DNA from: Sedimentisphaerales bacterium
GTDB lineage: Bacteria; Planctomycetota; Phycisphaerae; Sedimentisphaerales; SM23-30
DNA: 42,598 nucleotides
NCBI GenBank assembly: GCA_016934515.1
Contig: JAFGSR010000102.1
Location: 1-42,598, forward strand
Direction of reading: 5' to 3'
Below are positions 6,351 through 20,386 of the stretch, in pieces. The position numbers and the translations under genes were made by a program. Numbering within the stretch: position 1 is the stretch's first letter; each line of letters opens with the position of its first letter. Under the pieces are notes generated by a model that was not told the origin of the DNA, did not search any database, and worked only from the letters and a program-made list of their open reading frames with translations.

Positions 6351-6929
6351 TTATTCGTTTTTGGGTACTTCTTCTGTGCTTTCGGAAGGAGCTTCTTCAG
6401 GCTGGTCCGCAGGAGTCTTTTCATCAGTTTCAACGTTTTCAGTTGTTTCATCAACAGTTGGAGGAGCAGATTGTTCAACTTGAGGCGCGGCGAATTCGGT
6501 GGTGGCTTTTACGGCGTGGGAAGATACAGTTTCGCCGATAAGTTGTAACAAAACCAGCTTACCATTGTCGCCGATGCGTCGGTGGGGCAGATTGAGGATT
6601 CGGGTGTAGCCACCGTTGCGATCTTTGAATTGGGGGCCAAGTTCAGAAAAAAGCCTTTGTATTACGGAAGTAACTTTGACGGGTTGGCCATCTTCTACGG
6701 TGCAGATGTCACGATCCTGCAAAAGAGCAATGGCTCGACGTCGGGCATGTAGTGAGCCCTTTTTAGCGAGGGTGATGAGTTTTTCAGCGAAAGGCTGGAC
6801 GAATTTGGCTTTTTCGCGGGTGGTTAAAATGTTTCCATGTTCGAACAGAGAAGCGGCCAAATTACGGCGCAGGGCAGTTCGGTGGGCACTGGTACGATTT
6901 AAATGTTTTCCAGCAACTTGATGTCGCAT
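6351..6929 (-). CDS. rplQ: 50S ribosomal protein L17 with acidic C-terminal tail
   Basis: 192 residues. The core (1 to about 134) has the L17 signature MRHQ...LNRTSAHRTALRRN and NLAASLFEHGNILTT, ending near RRIGDNGKLVLLQL. L17 sits at the exit-tunnel side of the large subunit. Typical L17 is about 120-130 residues; the remaining 58 or so here are low-complexity, rich in Glu, Pro, Thr and Ser and strongly acidic. It follows rpoA by 66 bp, the classic alpha-operon order. AGGATT precedes ATG 6929. Confidence 0.97.
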   Translation of the reverse strand: MRHQVAGKHLNRTSAHRTALRRNLAASLFEHGNILTTREKAKFVQPFAEKLITLAKKGSLHARRRAIALLQDRDICTVEDGQPVKVTSVIQRLFSELGPQFKDRNGGYTRILNLPHRRIGDNGKLVLLQLIGETVSSHAVKATTEFAAPQVEQSAPPTVDETTENVETDEKTPADQPEEAPSESTEEVPKNE

Positions 6930-19462: not shown

Positions 19463-20011
19463 TTATTCCATATCTACGCTTACATGAATATGGCTGGCCA
19501 GTCGGGTCCAGGAAACCGCACGACCGCGATCTTTGGGCCGCCATCTTCGGGTGTTTAATCTGACGCCGCCTTCATCGACACGGGCGTCACAAACATACAA
19601 ACGCTCAACATCCGCTTCCTGCTCGTCCGCATTGGCAACGGCGCTGCTGAGCACTTTTTCCACCATCACCGCAGCCCGCTTGTTGGCAAATTTGAGCAGG
19701 TCCAATGCATCCTGCACAGACCGACCACGAATTAGGTCAGCAACCAAACGGACCTTACGCGGAGCCATCGGTGCATATTTGTGCGAGGCCGTCCAGACCA
19801 CCAAATCGTTACTGGACACCTCTAAAGCCCGGGCCAGTTTTCGAATGTCTTCCGTAGTCGGCTCCGGAACCAGCTTACCTGCCTGCCAGTTTTTTATAGC
19901 CGCCTGAGCCTGCTTTGGGTTCAGCCCCGCACGGGTAATCGCCTGGGCCAAATAGCTAATGCTGCGGCCGGATGTATTACACAATCTTTTTAATTTATCA
20001 CTGCTTAGCAT
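19463..20011 (-). CDS. rplV: 50S ribosomal protein L22 fused to an N-terminal HTH-like domain
   Basis: 182 residues, against about 110-120 for ordinary L22. The L22 core begins near residue 73 (ASHKYAPMAPRKVRLVADLI) and ends with RRWRPKDRGRAVSWTRLASHIHV, covering the tunnel-constricting hairpin. The first 70 or so residues look like a Cro/C1 (XRE) helix-turn-helix: ISYLAQAITRAGL, PKQAQAAIKNWQAGK (recognition-helix pattern with Trp), then DIRKLARALEVSSNDLV. No other ATG lies before the core; a TTG/GTG around residues 69-71 could yield a normal-length L22. ATG 20011 has a weak ribosome site. The extension may bind RNA or DNA, or be a lineage-specific ribosomal addition. Confidence 0.9.
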   Translation of the reverse strand: MLSSDKLKRLCNTSGRSISYLAQAITRAGLNPKQAQAAIKNWQAGKLVPEPTTEDIRKLARALEVSSNDLVVWTASHKYAPMAPRKVRLVADLIRGRSVQDALDLLKFANKRAAVMVEKVLSSAVANADEQEADVERLYVCDARVDEGGVRLNTRRWRPKDRGRAVSWTRLASHIHVSVDME

Positions 20012-20045
20012 ATTTCACTATTCCATGGACTCTGGAAAATTTTTA

Positions 20046-20122
20046 GCTCTATCAAAATTAGTTTTCCGTAGGAGCAAAGGCCAATAATCATTGTTCCTGA
20101 CAAATTCTGTTCGGGGCTCTTA
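20046..20122 (-). repeat. Dispersed inverted-terminus element, copy D
   Basis: Plus strand starts GCTCTATCAAAATTAGTTTT and ends TGTTCGGGGCTCTTA, where TTA is the rpsS stop codon on the minus strand. The core is GCAAAGGCCAATAATCATTGTT. It fills most of the 108-bp gap between rpsS and rplV. Confidence 0.72.
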
Positions 20123-20386
20123 TTTTCTTCCGCCGCTATGTCCCTTAAACGTTCGGGTTGGAGAGAACTCACCCAGTTTGTGCCCAACCATGTCTTCAGT
20201 TACATAGACTTTATGAAAAATTTTGCCGTTATGAACCATAAAGGTATGCCCGACAAATTCCGGTATAATAGTACATCTGCGCGCCCAGGTTTTCAGAGGG
20301 TCACGATCACTGCCGGCCTGCTGCTTAATAACCTTGGCAAAAAGTTTTTCGTCAACAAAAGGTCCTTTTTTTAACGAACGTCCCAT
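20120..20386 (-). CDS. rpsS: 30S ribosomal protein S19
   Basis: 88 residues. [49 protein letters not shown] and the end KGHSGGRK are diagnostic. S19 forms a complex with S13 in the 30S head. AAGGAT precedes ATG 20386, 12 bp after rplB. Confidence 0.98.

Follow-up and report, generated by a model that had tools for sequence, protein, structure and literature searches.

Ribosomal protein uL22 of the Sedimentisphaerales carries an N-terminal domain with a predicted XRE/Cro-C1-type fold

The rplV locus and its extended reading frame

The window, i.e., the entire stretch of DNA that was analysed, comprises 42,598 nucleotides of contig JAFGSR010000102.1 of a Sedimentisphaerales bacterium. Its rplV gene is the single L22 copy in the whole genome and occupies the S10-operon position between the genes for S19 and S3. 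The following features were assigned at the locus:

20120..20386, minus strand: rpsS (S19), upstream neighbour
20012..20119, minus strand: spacer between S19 and L22, 108 nt
19463..20011, minus strand: rplV, encoding a two-domain uL22 of 182 aa (ATG start, stop codon at 19463-19465)
19796..20011, minus strand: N-terminal XRE/Cro-C1-like domain, residues 1-72, assigned from AlphaFold2, Foldseek, conservation, and purifying selection
19802..19804, minus strand: candidate internal TTG start at codon 70, with GAGGTG at 19817-19822; site not conserved
19466..19795, minus strand: complete uL22 core, residues 73-182, assigned from PF00237/TIGR01044 and from Foldseek matches to solved L22
18729..19418, minus strand: rpsC (S3), downstream neighbour

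In profile searches, residues 75-179 matched Ribosomal_L22 (PF00237) at an E-value of 7e-29 (100.5 bits vs. a cut-off of 28), and the window protein matched TIGR01044 with 100.3 bits (cut-off 73.65). The modelled core superposed on solved L22 chains in Foldseek with TM-scores that were mostly at least 0.9 on the target. About 72 extra residues precede this complete uL22, in agreement with the first-pass annotation, which had described the protein as about 70 residues longer than usual and had quoted three motifs, all of which are present in the window protein. In this lineage, uL22 genuinely consists of two domains. Separately, the bL17 core in the window (6537-6869, minus strand) was found to sit inside an open frame of 209 aa, and many bL17 frames of the Phycisphaerae are 190-280 aa long; bL17 of this class may thus be extended as well.

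To cover the window's family and order, 59 genomes were surveyed, in 56 of which L22 was found. An open L22 frame of at least 183 aa was present in all 56, and the extension was recovered in every one of them via translated loci, profile searches, and, for the remaining members, sequences fetched later. In an alignment of 34 sequences, M1, N41, W42, P49, P51, and W73 were invariant. The dN/dS ratios of 17 close pairs ranged from 0.04 to 0.34 in the extension vs. 0 to 0.15 in the L22 core; the extension hence evolves faster than the core, though its reading frame is under purifying selection. A Shine-Dalgarno (SD)-like match of at least 4 nt was located before the extended start in 45 of 56 sequences, with the motif often being TAAGG in the Sedimentisphaerales and AGGA or GGAG in a further carrier family, f8 (see below); the window's own L22 start is preceded by a weak GGA only. 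Carriers of the extension have 235-402 nt between the S19 stop and the L22 core, compared to 27-231 nt, in most cases below 110 nt, in the other genomes. The extension is real coding sequence.

Alternative starts near the domain junction, which had been pointed out in the first-pass annotation, do exist in the window: the TTG at codon 70 is preceded by GAGGTG at a distance of 12 nt, and a GTG is located at codon 71. These sites are not conserved in the family; a manual count gave about 4 of 56 sequences that have an internal start near the junction together with an SD-like match of at least 4 nt, and many members possess none. A misannotated start, with translation beginning at about codon 70-73 to yield a normal L22, would agree with the TTG and its GAGGTG and with the L22 of non-extended relatives, which begins just ahead of the residue equivalent to W73. 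Set against this are the purifying selection and the invariant residues, the conservation of the extended starts with their SD motifs, the frame that is open in all genomes of the order in which L22 was found, the confidently predicted domain fold (see below), and the lack of conservation of the internal starts, which together make it extremely improbable that the extension is not made. A second alternative, suggested in the first-pass annotation, invokes a long and a short isoform, each made from its own start; the domain would then be present on a fraction of the ribosomes. The window and a few relatives have the internal TTG/GTG together with an SD-like motif; however, the rarity of such sites (about 4/56) leaves a conserved short isoform unsupported, and GAGGTG also encodes Glu-Val of the protein and may be a coincidence. 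The production of two isoforms is accordingly regarded as very improbable.

Predicted fold and DNA-reading positions of the N-terminal domain

AlphaFold2 predicted the full protein with a pLDDT of 90.8 and the domain alone with a pLDDT of 92.4 and a pTM of 0.80. The predicted domain is compact and consists of four to five helices with a short turn at residues 67-69; the L22 strand at residues 73-80 starts directly after it, with no linker in between. Helix boundaries were taken from DSSP on the AlphaFold2 models, and the elements of the domain are as follows:

19970..20002, minus strand: helix 1, residues 4-14
19937..19960, minus strand: helix 2, residues 18-25 (position 18 lacks the canonical XRE Gln in 56/56)
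19913..19933, minus strand: seven inserted residues, 27-33, within the HTH turn, from the alignment with two free-standing XRE proteins (L191, L193)
19883..19918, minus strand: helix 3 in the recognition-helix position, residues 32-43
19886..19891, minus strand: invariant Asn41-Trp42 (56/56 sequences)
19859..19867, minus strand: conserved Pro49-x-Pro51 loop, with flanks that are basic in most members
19823..19855, minus strand: helix 4, residues 53-63

The best Foldseek matches of the domain against the PDB were C.AhdI, C.Csp231I, P22 c2, the 434 repressor, SinR, and the HTH of MPnS. These XRE matches had probabilities of about 1.00 and TM-scores of about 0.6-0.75 on the query; their E-values were weak (0.075 or higher), which is often the case with domains this small. 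Searches against viral structures returned phage repressors. At the sequence level, the extension of the window protein alone gave sub-threshold XRE matches (HTH_26 at an E-value of 0.006 and HTH_3 at 0.01), phmmer with this single extension against PDB sequences yielded no useful match, and further profile searches resulted in weak matches only, the best being a TniQ HTH (E-value 0.001). Family-wide, the signal was clear, with best E-values of 3e-8 for HTH_31 and 1e-6 for HTH_3, and PHROG repressor families were matched by 30-33 of 56 members. In the HTH_3/HTH_31 search that the first-pass annotation had proposed, the window protein stayed below the Pfam cut-offs (HTH_3/19/26/31), and the full-length protein of one relative (L117) exceeded that of HTH_31 (30.6 bits vs. 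27). The structure prediction it had likewise proposed agreed with its assignment of an XRE/Cro-like domain, and both HTH similarity and conservation of the extension in relatives were found. An XRE/Cro-C1-type fold is therefore supported by models and profiles.

The domain shares with XRE/Cro-C1 repressors (HTH_3, HTH_31; C.AhdI, P22 c2, 434, SinR) the fold, the helix order, the hydrophobic core, an aromatic residue ending helix 3, and a proline in the next loop. It differs from them by the longer turn, the missing helix-2 Gln, variable recognition positions, and the fusion to L22. In the comparison with L191 and L193, which had been found with the domain profile, helices 1, 2, 4, and 5 were collinear and the L22 domain was longer by the seven residues between helices 2 and 3, so that it lacks the short canonical turn of the superfamily. 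Further insertions of about 7-14 residues just before helix 3 were observed in four members of the window's own family (L029, L132, L175, L177), which identifies this turn as a hot spot of length change. A Gln in helix 2 is typical of XRE proteins; at what we take to be the equivalent position, residue 18, it occurs in none of the 56 sequences. Positions 36-37, presumably the counterparts of the base-reading residues of 434 and P22 c2 according to our own alignment, are variable or small, position 36 being highly variable among the 56 sequences. What is retained is a hydrophobic core and a mostly basic loop, with the invariant N41-W42 at the end of helix 3, frequent basic residues at positions 6, 40, 44, 48, 50, and 52, a median net charge of +4, and a pI of 9.8. 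Judged from these sequences, the usual DNA-reading features are lost, which speaks indirectly against DNA binding, and the pattern fits a domain that would have kept its fold and acquired a new conserved surface rather than one that reads an operator.

This bears on autoregulation, a possibility raised in the first-pass annotation. In such a scheme, an excess of ribosomal proteins would lead free two-domain L22 to bind to an operator of the S10 operon and thereby repress the operon. The repressor fold and the basic character of the domain would suit such a regulator, and ribosomal-protein feedback is well known in S10-type operons, e.g., by L4 in E. coli. However, the spacer before L22 is of unequal length even between members of the same genus (108 nt in the window vs. 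about 30 nt in a relative, L023), an Rfam search of the window returned two tRNAs only and no known RNA leader family, and the domain has no separate dimerisation segment. Because a conserved spacer and a known leader are missing and the reading features are degenerate, DNA-binding autoregulation is weakened and considered unlikely.

Distribution in the Planctomycetota and origin

Profile searches identified carriers in 61 of 248 genomes of the class Phycisphaerae, namely in the Sedimentisphaerales and in families f8 and f12. A sample of 294 genomes of the phylum outside the class gave two weak matches only, both to other proteins. The survey of the Planctomycetota that had been proposed along with the first-pass annotation thus recovered the extension in all 56 L22 sequences of the order as well as in f8 and f12, and did not recover it in the other Planctomycetota sampled.

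The extension in f8 and f12 is a diverged version of the Sedimentisphaerales domain. Separate capture of an unrelated HTH in these families is unlikely, since a profile built from the Sedimentisphaerales only matched their extensions at E-values of 1e-11 to 1e-17; the same profile hit no other protein in the f8 and f12 genomes at an E-value of 0.01 or lower. In a tree of S19, the L22 core, and S3, the Sedimentisphaerales are placed apart from f8/f12, with the non-carriers f9, f10, f11, and others in between, and f8, f11, and f12 form one clade with a support of 98 in the S19 and S3 tree, f11 being without the domain. Transfer of the whole rplV gene between the carrier clades was rejected, as trees of the L22 core do not join the Sedimentisphaerales with f8/f12. 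Residue 73 is Trp in the Sedimentisphaerales and also in non-extended relatives whose L22 begins right there, and Phe in f8/f12; given this distribution, the L22 core looks vertically inherited. The history of the extension is hence either one ancient fusion with several losses, or a gain or spread of the N-terminal part on more than one occasion. During this survey, a contig titled Alphaproteobacteria (L078, JANQQE010000030.1) was found to encode an L22 of the Phycisphaerae type, which clusters in the tree with a UBA1845 Phycisphaerales record; the contig probably stems from a mislabelled or contaminated metagenome-assembled genome.

This distribution also counts in favour of a near-neutral passenger, i.e., a fusion fixed by chance that is folded and role-free and is kept since its removal needs a precise deletion. 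The domain is absent from many related families, seems to have undergone repeated loss or gain, and evolves faster than the core. Yet N41-W42 are absolutely conserved across deeply diverged lineages and dN/dS is well below 1, which indicates constraint, part of it perhaps for folding only. A passenger is therefore held to be improbable.

Proposed role on the ribosome and comparison with known systems

As an integral protein of the 50S subunit, uL22 contributes to the exit tunnel and its vestibule (PMC13338714); being a stoichiometric ribosomal protein, it would most probably keep the domain permanently on the 50S subunit and in a fixed copy number. The reading we favour with moderate confidence, which takes up the added contact near the tunnel exit suggested in the first-pass annotation, is that the XRE fold has been co-opted as a rigid ribosome-surface module that contacts rRNA or a ribosome-bound partner and is not a transcription factor. 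The domain would then sit on the solvent side near the exit region and act as a docking or stabilising module, with the N-W/basic-loop surface binding rRNA or a ribosome-associated protein; we infer this contact with the ribosome. The faster evolution of the extension compared to the core counts against the ribosome-surface module, as does family f11, which is nested among carriers and does without the extension.

Two candidate compensations were rejected. For lost rRNA, 23S sequences were located with a DNA probe, and 18 near-complete ones from the Phycisphaerae were aligned with the E. coli reference; among these 18, no insertion or deletion block tracked the extension and only loop differences of one to two columns were present. 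For a lost protein or chaperone of the exit region, bL32 and trigger factor were each detected in 90/91 genomes of the class and bL17 in 91/91, with carriers equal to non-carriers. These comparisons hence do not indicate which part is contacted or replaced. Two 23S stretches (L157 and L164, genomes G015 and G421) were 3192 and 3212 nt long, i.e., 250-400 nt longer than in relatives, which could be due to an intervening sequence or an intron.

A precedent by analogy for docking of the L22 domain may be seen in EDF1/Mbf1, whose Cro/C1 HTH is positioned between h16 and h33 of the 18S rRNA on the 40S subunit (PMC7486125). Like the L22 domain, MBF1/EDF1 of eukaryotes and archaea has a Cro/C1-type HTH, which is used on the ribosome; it is a separate factor of the small subunit, whereas the domain described here forms part of a protein of the large subunit. 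The HTH of MBF1/EDF1 is C-terminal and follows an N-terminal MBF1 domain or zinc ribbon, while that of L22 is N-terminal, so that the likeness is one of analogy only. MBF1/EDF1 has been described as absent from bacteria (PMC7486125). A more far-reaching idea, which is judged to be of low probability, is a built-in bacterial counterpart of MBF1, in which an XRE-fold sensor or docking platform on every 50S near the exit would read the state of the rRNA, sense adjacent ribosomes, or recognise a factor for targeting or quality control that is specific to the lineage.

Extensions of ribosomal proteins have been reported to be common in bacteria, and L22, S6, and L29 of Mycoplasma pneumoniae are extended (PMC9534751). 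The M. pneumoniae L22 extension is, as here, a lineage-specific structured addition; what the N-terminus of the L22 described here bears, however, is no helix or disordered tail but a whole, recognisable globular domain with a DNA-binding fold. PRK12279 (NCBIfam NF008917) likewise joins L22 to an added domain of unknown nature, but its match covers only the L22 part here (residues 82-177; 48.7 bits vs. a cut-off of 526). It is already known that ribosomal proteins, L22 among them, can be extended; the searchable literature, which reaches little into subscription journals, yielded no description of an L22 that bears an XRE-type domain.

A DNA-binding fold has been fixed on a universal ribosomal protein across a bacterial order, in which capture of a domain would remodel the surface of the ribosome. 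The fusion offers a testable case of what extensions of ribosomal proteins do, and it is possibly a second case, beside MBF1/EDF1, of a Cro/C1 domain that has moved from DNA to the ribosome.
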